A stretch of 6,975 nt of DNA from Dethiobacter sp. (lineage in GTDB: Bacteria > Bacillota_D > Dethiobacteria > Dethiobacterales > Dethiobacteraceae). The notes beneath the pieces were generated by a model that saw only the letters and a list, made by a program, of their open reading frames with translations, was not told the origin of the DNA and did no database searches. The stretch covers positions 1-6,975 of the forward strand of contig JAGXSQ010000105.1 of the NCBI GenBank assembly GCA_018333395.1, read 5' to 3'. How positions within the stretch are numbered: the stretch's first letter is position 1; each line of letters begins with the position of its first letter. Positions 980 to 6,975 of this stretch are shown here, piece after piece. A program made the translations under genes and the position numbers.

Positions 980-2293
980 ATGTTAAAGAATGAATATTTA
1001 TGTGACTCTGATGTAAAGCTCTTTATGCGCTGGTTAATTCATTTATGCGACAAAAAGGGTGTATTTACACATCAATGTATAGATCGCCGCAGCGGTGAGA
1101 TGTGGCGGTGTAATTCAATTTATGATGCCTTCTCAAAATACCAATGGTCATTTACATATACAGACCAAAACGGCCAAGTATATAGCGGTAAAGGTTTTGC
1201 GGAAAATGCGTAGCTTTATAGCGTTTGCGAAGCCAATTAAGGTGTGCTTTTTTAGATAAGGATTTAGACCGTTTATGCGGAAGCACTTGTATGATTTTTG
1301 ACTGGGGCGGGGTTCCAGGAAGGAACAATAGCTGGGCGAAAGAAAACCGTAAACATTTATATAGCATTTATCGGCAGGGAATGCTTATGCTTAAACCAGG
1401 AATCGCGAATGATATCGGCCCGTTCCCCGATCGCTTTAATTCTGGCATGACAAAGATTTACTCATTATTGCTAAATGACTTTATGATATATGATAGCCGG
1501 GTAGGTGCGGCAATTGGTTACCTTATTGTCCATTACTGTCAGGAGCGGCAACTCAAAAATACACCAAGCTTGTTAAAGTTCCCTTGGGCTGAGGCAAAAG
1601 AATCAAACCCTGTAAATGCAAAAAACCGCAATCCAAGCTGCGGTAGTTTAAAATTAAATCGAATTACTAATCCTCAACAGCATGCACGCTGGAATTTACG
1701 TGCAAGTTGGCTGCTAAATGAAGTAGCGAAGTCTTCGCAGCTTTTTTCCCAAGAAAAAAATCCTTTGCGTTCATTAGAGGCAGCCTTATTTATGATAGGC
1801 TATGACCTTGGGGGAGATAGCAAACCGAAGGAAGTTTTATGTAAACAGCAAATTGTGAAACAACCTGAAGATTACCCTTTAAAAACACGAGGCAAAGGTT
1901 ATTACTTTCGGGTAGACATAGACAAAAACAGTAATCTGCTGGTCTTTTCCTATCCAGTGAAATCTGATGGGAAGCAAAGATCAGTCGATCGGTTTTCTAT
2001 TTCTGAAATTGAACAAGTTATTGCATATTTAATGCAAAATTTCCAAGGGAGACCGTTTCCTCTTGCCAATGATGTTTCCCTGTTGAAAAAGTATGCAGCA
2101 AAGCCGGGATTAGGAATGGCCCTAATGTCAGTGACCGGAGATGTTACCAAGGCACAGGCAGGCAGCATCTTATCTTGGGCCATATATGGAAGATGTGGGT
2201 GCTTTTGTACTGGTAGCAACATATCCGGCACAATGGAGATTAATTGCATATCCCAATGACTTTAAAGGATTAATATATGCTTACCATGCTTAA
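980..2293 (+). pseudogene. Decayed first gene of the DUF262 operon, unknown function, about 436 residues when repaired
   Basis: The start is ATG 980, with GGAAGGTGAT (964-973) as ribosome site about six bases away; the in-frame ATG at 962 has none. The frame runs about 77 codons to a stop at 1211-1213, then resumes one frame over. There a TAG at 1219-1221 must also be crossed before a long open stretch (1222-2259). The simplest repair is one lost base near 1208-1212 plus a CAG-to-TAG change, giving FAENAVALQRLRSQL across the break. A third lesion is a GGCA duplication at 2157-2164. Removing one copy restores AQAASYLGPYMEDVGAFV and an ending QWRLIAYPNDFKG...YAYHA at 2291-2293. Conserved-looking motifs include IFDWGGVPGRNN, FPDRFNSGMTKIYS, YDSRVGAAIGYL and NPSCG. 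There are no membrane segments. I cannot assign a family. Its place before two DUF262 genes suggests a component of the same defence system. Confidence 0.75.
2157..2164 (+). repeat. Tandem GGCA duplication causing a frameshift
   Basis: GGCA occurs twice in a row within GCACAGGCAGGCAGC. With both copies the reading frame of the decayed gene (980-2293) runs off into SILSWAIYGRCGCF and stops at 2259. With one copy it continues for 43 further codons of well-behaved protein ending at 2293. This fits a slipped-strand duplication. Two units are too few for efficient phase switching. Confidence 0.75.
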
Positions 2294-2341
2294 TGGATAA
2301 ATATCAACACTTGGTGATCCAATAAGCTGATTAGCTAAACT

Positions 2342-2610
2342 GTGAGAAATGATAAGAGCCTTATTTGCGCGGGGTTGGAGATTATTCAGCCGGACGTTGT
2401 TGTCTGCGGGGCTATGTTTGGCTACGCAAAGGAATTGTTTCCGGACTTAGCTATGCAGAAGCCCTTGGAATGGCATAAGGGGAAATGTTACAGGTATGGA
2501 TTGATTATTGCCATCCGTCTGCACGCTTTGCCCGCAACATGACGGATAATACTGCTATTAAACATGTTTAGGAGGAAGCATTCCAAAACATTGGACGAGG
2601 AGAATTATGA
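2342..2610 (+). pseudogene. Remnant of a uracil-DNA-glycosylase-like gene (C-terminal part)
   Basis: One frame reads GLEIIQPDVVVCGAMFGYAK then ELFPD...KGKCY up to about 2491. The next frame continues VWIDYCHPSARFARNMT and AIKHV to a TAG at 2569-2571. Joining them needs one restored base near 2491. Past the TAG the same frame continues EEAFQNIGRGEL to a TGA at 2608-2610, which overlaps the ATG of the next gene as ATGA. The buried strand PDVVVCG followed about 50 residues later by an HPSAR motif resembles the second half of uracil-DNA-glycosylase-fold proteins, whose catalytic loops include an HPS motif. The N-terminal half is absent, since only 48 bases separate it from the preceding gene. It is therefore truncated, frameshifted and carries a nonsense codon. 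The family assignment is tentative; that it is a gene remnant is more certain. Confidence 0.55.
2597..2602 (+). promoter_or_regulatory. Ribosome binding site of the first DUF262 gene
   Basis: GAGGAG lies 4 bases before ATG 2607 and 10 bases before the in-frame ATG at 2613. Either codon could be used, and the longer spacing to the second is about as acceptable as the short spacing to the first. The site lies within the last codons of the decayed upstream gene, consistent with former translational coupling. Confidence 0.7.
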
Positions 2611-4352
2611 AAATGAATTCAATAAAAGCCGATATAAAACTCGAAACTAAGTACGTGGGTTTCGTTCAAGGAAAATTCTATGTTCCGTCATTTCAACGCG
2701 GATATCGATGGGGACATGATGAGGTAACCCGTCTACTTGATGATGTTAATTCCAACGGGACAAAAAACTACTGCCTGCAGCCGGTTGTTGTAAGAAGAAG
2801 AGAGGATTCTTTTGAACTGATCGATGGACAGCAGCGATTAACGACGTTGTTTCTTATCTATAAGTATATGAACATTTCTAGCTCCGGCTTCTTAGACGAG
2901 CCAAAATTTTCTTTAGTTTATGAAACAAGAGAAAAATCAGAAGAATTCCTTGCATCCATTGACCGATCAAAAAAGGAAGAAAACATAGATTATTGGTTTA
3001 TATGCGATGCCTATGAGACGATTGAGAAGTGGTTTGCCAACAAGGATAAGAAATCAACGCTGACCAACATCAACAAGTATTTCGATGAAAATGTCAAAAT
3101 AATCTGGTATGAGGTGGATAAGTCTGAAGATGCCATAGCACTGTTTACGCGTCTCAATATTGGGAAAATACCACTGACGAGCGCAGAACTAGTAAAGGCA
3201 ATGTTCCTGAATCGTGATAATAATTCCGATATGGATCGGGAGAAGCAGGAAGAGATTTCTCTCCAGTGGGACAACATTGAGAAGGAGTTGCATAACAACT
3301 CTTTATGGTATTTTCTTACCAATCGCTCAAATGCAAAATATCAAACACGTATTGACTTGATCTTAGATTTGATTTCTGGCAAACAAGCGGATAACAAAGA
3401 AAAATACTACACATTTTTCTATTTTGATGACTTGAAACAAAAGGAGAATCTAAATGAGATATGGAAAGAAATCCAGCATACATTTTTAATTCTCAAAGAC
3501 TGGTTTGAAGATCACGAGCTCTACCACAAAACCGGCTATTTGATTGCTTCAAATACTAAATCGCTGCAGGATATTTTTGCATTATCCAAACGCGAAATAG
3601 ACGGAAGAGGCATAACAAAAAATCGGTTCAAATCAGAATTAGACGCATACATCAAGAAAAGCATTGCCATATCCACCAATTATTCTGAACTAAGCTATGA
3701 GAAAACTACGGATTATACAAAAATCAGCAAGTTGTTGCTTCTATTCAATGTTGAATCTGTTCGGCAAAACGGCGAGCAGACTCATTGGTTTCCGTTTGAG
3801 AAATTCAAGTTTCAAAAAGCGAGCAAAGTCTCCTGGAGCTTGGAGCATATACATGCGCAACAGTCTGAAGGTATGCAAAAGCAAGATGATTGGAAAGAAT
3901 GGTTAAGATTGCATCTTACTTCTATTATGTCCCTAGACAACGGGAACGACGAACTGATCGAGGAAATGAAAAACGCCTGTGCTAAGGAGCGTCTGGAACG
4001 TCAGGAATTTGAAGACATCCAGCAAAAGGTAATACAAAAATTATCAGCACAGGGCAACACTGAATATATGCATTCTATTGCAAATTTGGCTTTGCTTAAT
4101 ATGAGTGATAACGCGGCTCTTAATAATTCCACATTTGATGTTAAGCGAAATGCAATTATAGAAATGGACAAAAAGGGTCAATTTATCCCGTTTTGCACGA
4201 AGATGGTTTTCTTGAAATACTATACGTCATCTGAAAGCAATCAGCTGCATTTCTGGGGACAGCGAGACCGAATCGCATACATAAAGGCGATCAACAGTAC
4301 ACTTAAAAATTACCTGGCCGAAGAAATTTCAATTGAAAAGGAGGCTGAATAG
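2607..4352 (+). CDS. DUF262-DUF1524 protein (GmrSD-type nucleotide-dependent HNH nuclease)
   Basis: This intact 581-residue protein has the fused architecture seen in GmrSD, BrxU and SspE, cytoplasmic anti-phage enzymes that couple NTP hydrolysis to DNA cleavage, often of modified DNA. The DUF262 domain starts with VPSFQRGYRW (26-35). It carries the ParB-like catalytic motif IDGQQRLTT (72-80) and the helical segment LFTRLNIGKIPLTSAELVKA (179-198). The C-terminal DUF1524 HNH nuclease is marked by WSLEHIHAQQ (410-419), with H414 the likely catalytic histidine, and by the second block ANLALLNMSDNAALNN through VKR (492-514). The usual GNL is ANL here. It follows the decayed uracil-glycosylase-like gene with an ATGA overlap and precedes the second DUF262 gene by one base. 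Substrate and target modification cannot be read from sequence. Family assignment is firm; the defence role is inferred from the family. Confidence 0.9.
   Translation: MKMNSIKADIKLETKYVGFVQGKFYVPSFQRGYRWGHDEVTRLLDDVNSNGTKNYCLQPVVVRRREDSFELIDGQQRLTTLFLIYKYMNISSSGFLDEPKFSLVYETREKSEEFLASIDRSKKEENIDYWFICDAYETIEKWFANKDKKSTLTNINKYFDENVKIIWYEVDKSEDAIALFTRLNIGKIPLTSAELVKAMFLNRDNNSDMDREKQEEISLQWDNIEKELHNNSLWYFLTNRSNAKYQTRIDLILDLISGKQADNKEKYYTFFYFDDLKQKENLNEIWKEIQHTFLILKDWFEDHELYHKTGYLIASNTKSLQDIFALSKREIDGRGITKNRFKSELDAYIKKSIAISTNYSELSYEKTTDYTKISKLLLLFNVESVRQNGEQTHWFPFEKFKFQKASKVSWSLEHIHAQQSEGMQKQDDWKEWLRLHLTSIMSLDNGNDELIEEMKNACAKERLERQEFEDIQQKVIQKLSAQGNTEYMHSIANLALLNMSDNAALNNSTFDVKRNAIIEMDKKGQFIPFCTKMVFLKYYTSSESNQLHFWGQRDRIAYIKAINSTLKNYLAEEISIEKEAE
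4338..4344 (+). promoter_or_regulatory. Ribosome binding site that sets the TTG start of the second DUF262 gene
   Basis: AAGGAGG is a near-perfect anti-16S match placed 9 bases before TTG 4354. It lies inside the last codons of the upstream gene. It excludes the in-frame TTG at 4333, which would precede this site and overlap the upstream gene, and it supports coupled translation of the two proteins. Confidence 0.85.
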
Positions 4353-4353
4353 T

Positions 4354-6528
4354 TTGGGAACCTCTCTTAATACCTTTATCGAAATATTTAATACCGGTTT
4401 TGAAGTTGACGAAGAAACCGTTCAGCTAAAAAAGATAGCAATCCCAATTATACAGCGCGACTATGCCCAAGGCCGCATAGATGCAGAAATTAATCGTATT
4501 CGGGCACGTTTTCTAAACTCTTTATACCAAGCCATAATGGCTGATTCAGTTACCTTGGATTTCGTTTACGGAGACATCAATACAAATGGCGTTATGACAC
4601 CGTTGGATGGCCAGCAGCGCCTTACAGCACTCTTTCTTCTCCATTGGTACGCTGCTAAGAAAGAAAATATAGACGCTGCAGAGCATCAATTCTTGGGAAA
4701 CTTCAGTTATGAGACACGATACAGCGCACGTGATTTCTGCTCTTTTCTAATCAGGTTTAACCCCTCATTTATAAAAAAGCTGTCAGAAGAAATCGTTGAT
4801 CAGGCATGGTTTCCGCTCGATTGGAAAAAAGATCCGACAATCAGTTCAATGCTGGTGATGCTTGATGCGATTCATGATGAATTCGCGAAAACACAGGGAA
4901 TTTGGGCAAGGCTGAAGGAAAAGGCAATAACCTTCTACTTTCTTCCCATCAAAGATATGGGACTCACCGATGAATTGTATATCAAAATGAATTCGCGTGG
5001 AAAGCCGCTAACGCAATTTGAGCACTTTAAAGCCGAATTGGAACGTGAACTGCGTAAGATCGATGAACCTACGGCAAAACGTATCATCAAGAAGATCGAT
5101 CTTGATTGGACTTATTTGCTCTGGCAGTATCGCGGCGACGATAATGTGATTGATGATGAGTTCCTGCGTTACTTCAGGTTCATTTGTGACATCATTTGTT
5201 ACCAGAACGGCGGGACAACTCAAGGCAAGAGCAATGATGAATTTGACCTCTTGAAAGAATATTTTTCTGGTCAAAATGAAAATGTTATGGCTAATATCCA
5301 AACGCTAGAAGACTATTTCGATTGTTGGTGCTGTCTTCAGGGCGATAACACTCCGGACAAATTTTTGGAACGATTTATTTCACACGAACATCAAGCTGGA
5401 AAAATTAAAGTTGAAAAAAGGTACGGAATTAACATTTTCAAAGACTGCGTGCGTAATTATGCTGATATATCTGGCAATAGTAACAGGCTGTTCCCGTTGA
5501 ATAGGATTGTCCTTATATATGCTGTTATCTCTTACCTATTAAACAAGGACACCGTAACCGATAAGGAATTCTCAAGAAGACTTAGAATCGTATGCAACTT
5601 AATCCAAAACTCCGAAGATGAGATCAGCGATAGTGAGCTCAGAACAAGCGGCAATAGAATGCCAGCAATTTTAAAGCAAGTTAATGACATTATTAAAACT
5701 GGCACAATCGATGACACCATAGAAAAAAACCTAAACTTGAGTCAATTGGCTGAAGAAACATTAAAGATTACATGGGTCGAAAATAATCCGGATAAGGCGG
5801 AAGCGTTATTTGAATTAGAGGACCATGATTTGCTTCAAGGTCAGATCAGCATTATTGGCTTAGATCACCCTGAATACTTCCTGCGTTTCCAATCGTTGTT
5901 CTCCTGCAATTGGGACCTAGTTGATTGCGCGCTTATGTCCATCGGGAATTACGGGCAAAAAGAGAAAAATGGATGGAGATATCAATTGGGTTCGAAAAAG
6001 AACATGAAGGCTTGGCGAAATCTGTTTCACAAAAGCGGTAATGACGGGTTTGAAAGAACAAAGGATGTCCTCGTGGAGTTGTTGTCTCGCGCTGATTCGT
6101 TTACCGACGAACTTTTGTCCGGCATCCTCAACACCTATATCAACGATTGCGAAACCAACAATAACTATGAGTGGCGATATTACTATATTAAGTATGACCT
6201 TTTCAGACCGGGAAGCTTTGGAAAATATTACTGGAACGATTTTGAGAAGCGGCCATACGAGTTTTCCGTTATGTCAACAGAGTCAAAGATTTCTGAAAAC
6301 ACATATCAGCCGTTTTTAAAGGCGGTTTACAGCAATAATCTGTCAAAAGACCATTATGGGCAACGCGCCATTGATGGTGATAATTATATTATTTGCGCGA
6401 ACTCTGCCTATGTTGTTAAAAGCACTGCTACAAATGCGGAAGTCAAAAGAATAGTAATCGCACAAAACGATAATAGCATTGACACGGAAGATAGAATTAA
6501 AAAATTTCAATTACTCTTGGAACAGTGA
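4354..6528 (+). CDS. Second DUF262 protein, without DUF1524 nuclease domain
   Basis: This is an intact 724-residue protein started by TTG. It begins one base after the stop of the DUF262-DUF1524 gene, so the two are almost certainly co-translated. The DUF262 domain has the variant N-terminal motif IPIIQRDYAQGR (30-41), the catalytic-type motif LDGQQRLTA (84-92) and YIKMNSRGKPLTQFEHFKA (209-227). In many such proteins this last region reads N-S-R/T-G-x-x-L-x-x-x-E. I find no EHI nuclease motif and no DUF1524 end block. The remaining 500 residues are helical-looking, with no membrane segments, and end in a short beta-rich tail around NYIICANSAYVV. It is likely a nucleotide-hydrolysing or sensing partner of the upstream nuclease. 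Family membership is well supported by motifs. The partner role is inferred from adjacency and complementary domain content. Confidence 0.85.
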   Translation: MGTSLNTFIEIFNTGFEVDEETVQLKKIAIPIIQRDYAQGRIDAEINRIRARFLNSLYQAIMADSVTLDFVYGDINTNGVMTPLDGQQRLTALFLLHWYAAKKENIDAAEHQFLGNFSYETRYSARDFCSFLIRFNPSFIKKLSEEIVDQAWFPLDWKKDPTISSMLVMLDAIHDEFAKTQGIWARLKEKAITFYFLPIKDMGLTDELYIKMNSRGKPLTQFEHFKAELERELRKIDEPTAKRIIKKIDLDWTYLLWQYRGDDNVIDDEFLRYFRFICDIICYQNGGTTQGKSNDEFDLLKEYFSGQNENVMANIQTLEDYFDCWCCLQGDNTPDKFLERFISHEHQAGKIKVEKRYGINIFKDCVRNYADISGNSNRLFPLNRIVLIYAVISYLLNKDTVTDKEFSRRLRIVCNLIQNSEDEISDSELRTSGNRMPAILKQVNDIIKTGTIDDTIEKNLNLSQLAEETLKITWVENNPDKAEALFELEDHDLLQGQISIIGLDHPEYFLRFQSLFSCNWDLVDCALMSIGNYGQKEKNGWRYQLGSKKNMKAWRNLFHKSGNDGFERTKDVLVELLSRADSFTDELLSGILNTYINDCETNNNYEWRYYYIKYDLFRPGSFGKYYWNDFEKRPYEFSVMSTESKISENTYQPFLKAVYSNNLSKDHYGQRAIDGDNYIICANSAYVVKSTATNAEVKRIVIAQNDNSIDTEDRIKKFQLLLEQ

Positions 6529-6587
6529 AATCTAAAATAACCACGAAGTATGGCCATTTAATTATATGGCTGGAGGAGGAAAAGAAG

Positions 6588-6668
6588 ATGATTACAGACA
6601 AACAGTTTGATGACGCACTGTTTTTGCTAACCCATAATGCCCTGGAAAACCAAAATTCGCGTACGTGA
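6588..6668 (+). pseudogene. 5' stub of a truncated operon gene
   Basis: A textbook ribosome site (GGAGGAGGA, 6572-6580) lies about eight bases before ATG 6588, 59 bases after the second DUF262 gene. The frame encodes MITDKQFDDALFLLTHNALE and then NQNSRT before a stop. It starts like a real helical protein but ends after 26 codons, exactly where base composition changes, so I read it as the front of a fifth operon gene whose remainder was removed. I cannot name it. A genuine 26-residue peptide is possible but less likely. Confidence 0.5.
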
Positions 6669-6687
6669 TTATCGTTGTGTTTTCCAT
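6592..6687 (-). pseudogene. Stub of a leftward gene from the right-hand element
   Basis: On the minus strand, GGGGAG lies four bases upstream of ATG (6687-6685), and the frame reads MENTTIITYANF before passing into sequence that is the complement of the truncated plus-strand stub. It stops at 6592-6594 after 31 codons. Only about the first 12 codons, with the ribosome site, look genuine; the rest is antisense to the other stub. I read it as a second gene cut at the same junction. The product is unknown. Confidence 0.4.
6640..6665. other. Inferred junction between defence operon and right-hand element
   Basis: Two convergent reading frames, each with its own ribosome site, lose coherence here: the plus-strand one started at 6588 and the minus-strand one started at 6687. 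To the left the DNA is AT-rich operon sequence; to the right it becomes GC-rich and hairpin-rich with genes pointing left. No duplicated target site or terminal inverted repeat can be recognised from one end only. The exact breakpoint is uncertain by about 15 bases. Confidence 0.4.
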
Positions 6688-6705
6688 ATTGCTCCCCATT
6701 ATAAC

Positions 6706-6720
6706 CGGCGCGAAGCGCCG
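6706..6720. other. GC-rich hairpin, CGGCGC stem with three-base loop
   Basis: CGGCGC (6706-6711) and GCGCCG (6715-6720) form a perfect six-base stem around GAA (TTC on the other strand). It lies 18 bases upstream of the minus-strand start at 6687, in what would be that gene's leader, so a regulatory or element-specific role is possible. There is no T-run on either side, so it is not a standard terminator. Confidence 0.5.
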
Positions 6721-6834
6721 ATACCTTGCGGGATGGCAACCCTTCCCACAGCTTGATTCTTTCGTAAAGCAAGGGCCTTAGAGTGCCATTTCATGCTATG
6801 TGTGTCAGGGTTTTACCGCCACAGAGTGCCGGGC

Positions 6835-6853
6835 GGCGGGAATCCCGCCTTTT
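6835..6853 (+). terminator. Terminator-like hairpin with short T-run
   Basis: GGCGGG (6835-6840) pairs with CCCGCC (6844-6849) around AAT and is followed by TTTT (6850-6853). The T-run is short and on the plus strand, whereas the recognisable gene at this end reads leftward, so its use as a terminator is uncertain. It may instead be part of a larger structured element with the adjacent hairpin at 6854-6884. Confidence 0.4.
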
Positions 6854-6884
6854 CCTCCGGCCTTCCGCTCCGGGAGTCCGGAGG
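6854..6884. other. Imperfect GC-rich stem-loop downstream of the leftward gene
   Basis: CCTCCGG (6854-6860) is complementary to CCGGAGG (6878-6884), and the intervening bases contain CTC-CGG-GAG, which can form a small inner stem. It begins about 30 bases beyond the stop of the leftward gene ending at 6915. It could help end or stabilise that transcript, although no T-run follows on the minus strand. Confidence 0.4.
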
Positions 6885-6914
6885 GGGTCAATACGCCGGT
6901 ATTTCTATATGAAA

Positions 6915-6975
6915 TCAGAATTTTCTCGCAAAGATGCTTTTCTCGTCCAGCAAGCTCTCCACCGTTTCAAAGCCC
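6915..6975 (-). CDS. C-terminal end of a leftward gene, cut by the window edge
   Basis: The minus strand is open from the window end to a TGA at 6915-6917 and encodes GFETVESLLDEKSIFARKF. The acidic/leucine-rich helical character is that of a normal protein end. Only about 19 residues are visible, so the family cannot be assigned. The gene points left, opposite to the defence operon, and is followed by hairpins at 6854-6884 and 6835-6849. This orientation and the GC shift suggest it belongs to a different, possibly mobile, element. Confidence 0.4.
   Translation of the reverse strand, partial: GFETVESLLDEKSIFARKF

Follow-up and report, generated by a model that had tools for sequence, protein, structure and literature searches.

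A contig of Dethiobacter sp. carries, in the 6,975-nucleotide stretch of DNA analysed here (the window), two adjacent genes for DUF262 proteins, the first with an HNH nuclease domain and the second without one, and this raises the question of whether the second protein is a part of the same enzyme or a gene in its own right. We consider it probable (about 0.83) that the two genes, hereafter A and B, constitute a single GrwAB-like restriction system of two genes and of type IV (modification-dependent), with A as the nuclease and B as an obligatory partner most likely involved in sensing or licensing.

The two proteins and the junction of their genes

Both reading frames are open at the coordinates collected in Table 1, as the first-pass annotation had them. 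It had further stated that DGQQR occurs in both proteins and the EHI and ANL blocks in the first only, and this is what the sequences hold: DGQQR at residues 73-77 of A and 85-89 of B, EHI at 413-415 and ANL at 492-494 of A, both absent from B. The Pfam search that it had suggested agrees, with GmrSD_N above the cut-off in A and B and GmrSD_C in A only. The latter match is barely above the Pfam cut-off (23.7 bits vs 23), and the domain is recovered in 37 of 39 A sequences at E 0.01.

Table 1. Features of the A-B locus, in coordinates of the window
Feature	Coordinates	Strand	Evidence
Gene A (GrwA-like), DUF262 + DUF1524 fused nuclease, 581 aa	2607..4352	+	open ORF and Pfam domains
GmrSD_N (DUF262) of A, residues 22-200	2670..3206	+	Pfam, E 3.4e-33
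GmrSD_C (DUF1524, His-Me/HNH nuclease) of A, residues 400-517	3804..4157	+	Pfam, E 5e-5
Shine-Dalgarno AAGGAGG for B, within the end of A	4338..4344	+	sequence; similar site in most relatives' junctions
Gene B (GrwB-like), DUF262 partner with long C-terminal part, 724 aa, TTG start	4354..6528	+	
GmrSD_N (DUF262) of B, residues 26-229	4429..5040	+	Pfam, E 1.6e-18
C-terminal part of B, residues 253-724, candidate target reader	5110..6525	+	

All three DUF262 motifs are present in A (QR 30-31, the above DGQQR and FTRLN 180-184), and in an alignment of 39 A sequences Q30, R31, D73-R77, F180 and N184, as well as the nuclease residues H414, N493 and N502, are identical throughout. Profile matches of A to the PDB fall inside its DUF262 domain: SspE 6jiv (residues 19-88), 9jfl (18-223) and 7p9k (17-78), the last of which we take to be BrxU. 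Among the PADLOC models, HEC-06, described as working independently (PMC11411939), matches A at 83.6 bits (E 2.6e-24) in three stretches, one of them 72 residues long. The PADLOC SspE model gives no match over the full protein length to either protein; its best score with A is 38.1 bits (best stretch 25 residues), and B scores 14.8 bits, with 23 residues aligned to a model of 771 positions.

The motifs of B are QRDYAQGR (34-41), DGQQR and YIKMN (209-213), and the third motif of the B family takes the form YxxxN, as against FxxxN, in all 66 sequences. In the alignment of these sequences (A3), Q34, R35, G40 and R41 are identical in 66/66, D36 and Y37 in 65 and Q39 in 64. Thus, RDYAQGR, which had been singled out as a variant motif, is not peculiar to this copy but forms the QR-motif region throughout the B family. 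The A and B profiles align over DUF262 only (columns 25-223 of A with 30-252 of B; hhalign probability 97.4), and a Pfam search with the approximately 470 residues of B beyond DUF262 found no family above noise in 40 B proteins. A degenerate DUF1524 in B is rejected at this sensitivity, given the restriction of the profile alignment to DUF262 and the negative Pfam search, with no GmrSD_C at E 0.05 in the 40 B proteins. Against the PDB, the C-terminal part of B gave weak stretches only (FlgJ, with E 0.62 at best; DHT03 protein C, with E 0.096 at best), and no solved structure matched at E 1e-3 outside the DUF262 domain of A or B.

This C-terminal part is the least conserved region of the system. 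Residues 253-724 of B are less identical to the window than the DUF262 domain of B in 59 of 59 pairs, and less identical than residues 224-581 of A in 58 of 59; among the 16 most distant pairs, mean identity runs 42%, 34% and 34% along A and 46%, 18%, 24% and 19% along B. In the nearest relatives (L001) this difference is small or absent. Nine residues of B, namely R411, N415, Q464, E467, K471, E489, G496, Y533 and W554, are identical in 66/66 sequences.

The junction is equally as first described, with a single base between the genes and a ribosome site inside the end of the first: the TAG stop of A (4350-4352) is followed after one base by the TTG start of B (4354-4356), and AAGGAGG precedes that TTG by 9 bases. 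A purine-rich site is seen at the same place in most of the relatives' junctions examined. Relatives start B at about the same position, with ATG or GTG (the start-picking script favours ATG), and the alternative start at 4333 from a mechanical ORF list is therefore unlikely. An Rfam search for an RNA element returned no match, and since 2260-6975 has fewer promoter-like sites than shuffled sequence (7 vs a mean of 12.3), no promoter is claimed.

Pairing and co-inheritance of A and B

Genome contigs were scanned with peptide patterns drawn from the window's own B, so that the scan favours close relatives, and 49 loci were obtained. In 47 of these tblastn finds a match to A upstream of B; the exceptions are a contig that starts about 130 bases upstream of B (L038) and a locus with a broken B and no A found (L048). 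The distance from the stop of A to the start of B ranges from -14 to +12 bases in the 46 loci in which the A frame is open into the junction, some of these A genes running off the contig edge or being interrupted farther upstream (L014, L047); L024 has a broken A frame. Alignment A1 omits L011, L014, L015, L019, L024, L026, L027, L028, L038, L047 and L048, as partial, broken, absent or very similar to L023/L025, and alignment A2 omits L005, L015, L026, L028, L038, L041, L044, L045, L048 and L049, as partial, cut by a contig end, with an odd start or very similar.

A tblastn search of plasmids with B gave 17 records, of which 13 were examined after the near-duplicates H3, H4, H12 and H15 had been left out; all 13 encode a DUF262 protein upstream of B on the same strand, and 12 of these upstream genes score at least 100 bits with the A profile, the one from Segatella (L091) scoring 62 bits. 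When two further B proteins served as queries, 15 and 17 records were obtained, from the same organisms. Disrupted copies occur: in Paenarthrobacter AT5 an IS3 transposase separates A from B, both Paenarthrobacter plasmid records have a split B, and that of Paraburkholderia has a split A. On viral contigs A adjoins B on its upstream side in 12/12 B loci, and phage records searched with B gave no match. Far from usually lying apart, a possibility against which a survey of co-occurrence had been suggested, the two genes are thus found together in genome contigs, plasmids and viral contigs alike (47/49, 13/13 counting any upstream DUF262 gene, and 12/12), and the A-B pair is a real unit.

GrwAB-like pairs were recovered from eight phyla, six by record taxonomy and two by the titles of metagenome bins. 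The plasmid records come from Bacillota, Actinomycetota, Pseudomonadota, Campylobacterota, Bacteroidota and Spirochaetota; among the genome loci there are also bins titled Elusimicrobiales, Gastranaerophilales and Riflebacteria, as well as a Moraxella. Vibrio relatives (P0249, P0253, P0257) are among the matches listed; V. cholerae GrwAB is not among the named matches listed, most of the matches carrying no name. The pairing appears to be old, spans distant phyla and is no Vibrio curiosity.

In E. coli, B is present in 28 of 5,426 genomes. Seven of these records, with 85.9% DNA identity to HUE1, have two DUF262 genes annotated under the match, and the one examined among them, E400634, has an intact A-B pair with an 8-base overlap (against the window, 38% for A and 34% over 513 columns for B). 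The other 21 are at least 99% identical to HUE1 over the matched part; four or more are split or partial. Two of the 21 were examined, HUE1 (L184, 5109-7857) and MIN6 (L185): an IS5-family element lies upstream of B, and of A only the C-terminal end is left (profile positions 522-563). The frame of B is open in HUE1 and breaks close to the start in MIN6. E. coli DNA searched with the G346 genes gave no match.

The reverse survey addresses which A proteins have a B. With the A profile at E 1e-20, 8 of 291 clostridial genomes were matched, including the centre (G006), which had been picked for having the pair and was left out of the count; among the remaining 290, a full-length A is found in three (G023, G211, G255), each with B alongside. 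One further genome (G112) has a fragment of A and no B match, and three (G178, G204, G250) have two neighbouring DUF262 genes of other kinds. Among Gammaproteobacteria, B is present in 3 of 369 genomes, including the centre (G014), and both of the others (368 searched, centre excluded) have A adjacent, B being split over two contigs in G503.

Searching viral contigs with A gave 148 confirmed relatives, and 79 loci were retained from these. Sixteen score at least 100 bits with the A profile and 12 of these have B adjacent, 11 being contigs already recovered in the scan with B and only L117 being new; the remaining four have a remote DUF262 neighbour (L118, L119), end at the contig edge (L115) or have a truncated A and no B (L114). 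Below 100 bits, 61 of 63 loci show no second DUF262 ORF, a count in which some loci are cut short by the contig edge and from which a very remote DUF262 neighbour could have escaped at E 1e-3; the other two (L120, L122) have DUF262 pairs in the other order. Comparison of the loci above and below 100 bits thus indicates that B goes with this A subfamily and not with GmrSD proteins generally. The second DUF262 protein, whose role was left open by the describers of TgvAB and GrwAB, is in other words the steady partner of one nuclease subfamily.

The two genes have also been inherited together. Seventy A-B pairs passed the score and length limits, and 60 remained after removal of 10 identical ones; across these, the distances in the A and B trees correlate with r 0.975 (0 of 2000 permutations as high), and with r 0.964 when remote pairs only are taken. 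The nearest neighbour is the same in both trees for 31 of the 60 pairs, and agreement in the fine branching is thus partial.

Relation to published two-gene systems and the part played by B

The first-pass annotation had taken a fused enzyme with a large second DUF262 protein to imply a two-component mechanism not explained by the standard model. Conserved adjacency, junction geometry and co-inheritance give good support to the first half of this proposal, but the second is out of date, as two-gene GmrSD-like systems that depend on both genes have been published, namely TgvAB (2024; PMC11411939), GrwAB (2025; PMC12137116) and GmrSD-ECOR17 (2025; PMC12373910). The two-component reading is thus supported but not new. 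An enrichment of DUF262 genes beside GmrSD genes had already been reported (PMC4619093), and three two-gene systems are given among 15 enterobacterial groups in PMC12373910 (further literature: PMC12409362, PMC10952713, PMC12707154). In the literature searched, in which few subscription journals are covered, no title claims a mechanism for such a two-gene pair and no phage assay of a clostridial member was found.

GrwAB, from Vibrio cholerae WASA VSP-II, consists of GrwA with DUF262 and DUF1524 and, as the product of the second gene, GrwB with DUF262 and unknown domains; point mutants in either DGQQR or in nuclease residues are inactive, the system acts against Queuovirinae, Tevenvirinae and some Markadamsvirinae, and it had 471 matches in 45,725 genomes (PMC12137116). 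The window pair appears GrwAB-like, with a gene order and layout that match this system: a fused DUF262-DUF1524 gene comes first and a DUF262 gene with a long C-terminal extension second, adjacent and on the same strand, with DGQQR in both proteins and the His-Me residues H, N and N in A. The motif positions (R77, H414, N493 and N502 in A, R89 in B) show the same order and similar spacing as the residues mutated in GrwAB (R81, H431, N521 and N530 in GrwA, R86 in GrwB; PMC12137116), with H-to-N and N-to-N distances of 79 and 9 in A as against 90 and 9 in GrwA. This membership is drawn from architecture and motif positions in the published description rather than from a sequence alignment, and an R at exactly position 86 is found in 18 of 360 collected B proteins. 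GmrSD-ECOR17 (GmrS1-GmrSD2 of E. coli) is likewise a two-gene type IV enzyme that needs both genes and the HNH (PMC12373910), but differs in that GmrS1 lies upstream of GmrSD2 and in the HNH at E582/H583. The order of DUF262 then DUF1524 in A is shared with GmrSD, BrxU and SspE, which are described as single-protein systems (PMC12137116).

For the preferred two-gene system, we propose that the DUF262 domain of A would bind and hydrolyse NTP and its His-Me (HNH) domain would cut DNA. B would be an obligatory partner with a DUF262 NTPase site of its own and a long C-terminal part that matched no nuclease family, and would most likely sense a base modification on incoming phage DNA, or license A to do so. 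Cutting by A would then follow NTP turnover within an A-B complex, both DUF262 domains binding NTP. That A and B form a complex, and that the window pair restricts modified DNA, are presumed here; the need for both genes, for both DGQQR motifs and for the nuclease residues in defence is established for GrwAB (PMC12137116).

As judged from its low conservation, the C-terminal part of B is a candidate reader of modifications. It is possible, as a tentative extension of this, that GrwAB-like pairs are an ancient restriction architecture, with a conserved A as the cutting chassis and with B as an HsdS-like specificity subunit whose DUF262 is coupled to the NTP cycle of A and whose fast-diverging C-terminal part reads different base modifications; if so, the family would be a source of proteins that recognize different DNA modifications. 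The combination of invariant B residues and a fast-diverging tail makes the question of the reader testable by mutation and domain exchange.

A divergent tail would suit a recognition module, an inhibitor-tracking surface or plain weak constraint equally. The second of these belongs to a reading that we regard as rather unlikely, in which B is a counter-inhibitor or regulator that shields A from phage inhibitors (Ip-like) or restrains its nuclease, the system still being one of two-gene restriction. The TgvAB authors raised this option (PMC11411939), and GmrSD-ECOR17 is specifically blocked by Ip3 and is toxic when both of its genes are co-induced (PMC12373910). The loss of defence in GrwB R86A and the mapping of Bas24 escapers of GrwAB to the modification enzyme DpdA (PMC12137116) speak against this reading, though both are compatible with such a shielding or restraining role.

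It is improbable that A works by itself as a complete single-protein GmrSD enzyme, with B an independent DUF262 defence gene merely travelling along. GmrSD enzymes most commonly take the form of a single fused protein (PMC4619093), as the low-scoring viral loci, nearly all with no second DUF262 ORF and some cut by a contig edge, would also have it, but in the loci of at least 100 bits the partner tracks the A subfamily, the junction geometry and the agreement of the A and B trees tie the genes together, and in GrwAB both are required (PMC12137116). An assignment of the pair to the TgvAB type, found in V. cholerae VPI-2, is very improbable: the general plan of a DUF262-only protein and a DUF262-DUF1524 protein, both needed for defence, is the same, but there the DUF262-only gene comes first (PMC11411939), the window having the fused gene first and a B with a long tail of no known family, GrwB and TgvA are reported to differ outside DUF262 (PMC12137116), the H-to-N spacing in TgvB is 31 (H571-N602) as against 79 in A, and DUF7834, seen in the partner of the four Tgv-order pairs scanned, is found in 0/40 B proteins.

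Neighbouring genes and other DUF262 pairs

The four Tgv-order pairs (L068, 66-3285; L120, 4932-8021; L122, 4935-8093; L067, 2-3486) consist of a short DUF262 + DUF7834 protein followed by a DUF262 protein with GmrSD_C, no GmrSD_C being found in L067; their gene order is that of TgvAB.

In the window itself, 962-2259 holds two ORFs in different frames, which may be one frameshifted gene and which match no Pfam or PHROG family, and 1-2606 gave no plasmid DNA match. Around the relatives, 9 of 10 proteins hand-picked from L003, L004, L007, L009 and L020 (a biased sample) match PADLOC defence models. A PADLOC PLD_Helicase gene lies directly upstream of A in L004 and L007, and L004 has PDC-S14 and CBASS genes (SAVED effector, cyclase, E1-E2) downstream (5989-11285).

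A 3'-5' exonuclease and a WYL regulator are found beside the pair in Bacteroides (L043), on plasmids of Prevotella (L092) and Chryseobacterium (L084) and on a viral contig (L096, the same as L108), the exonuclease being recognized as Pfam RNase_T in L084 and L092 and by phmmer in L043 and L096/L108; the four genes together are possibly a variant of the system. An ORF that appears exonuclease-like by eye also precedes the lone truncated A of L114. In the Selenomonadaceae/Quinella bins L031, L037, L038 and L048, B lies just before an ORF that reads like gatB, suggesting a preferred insertion site.
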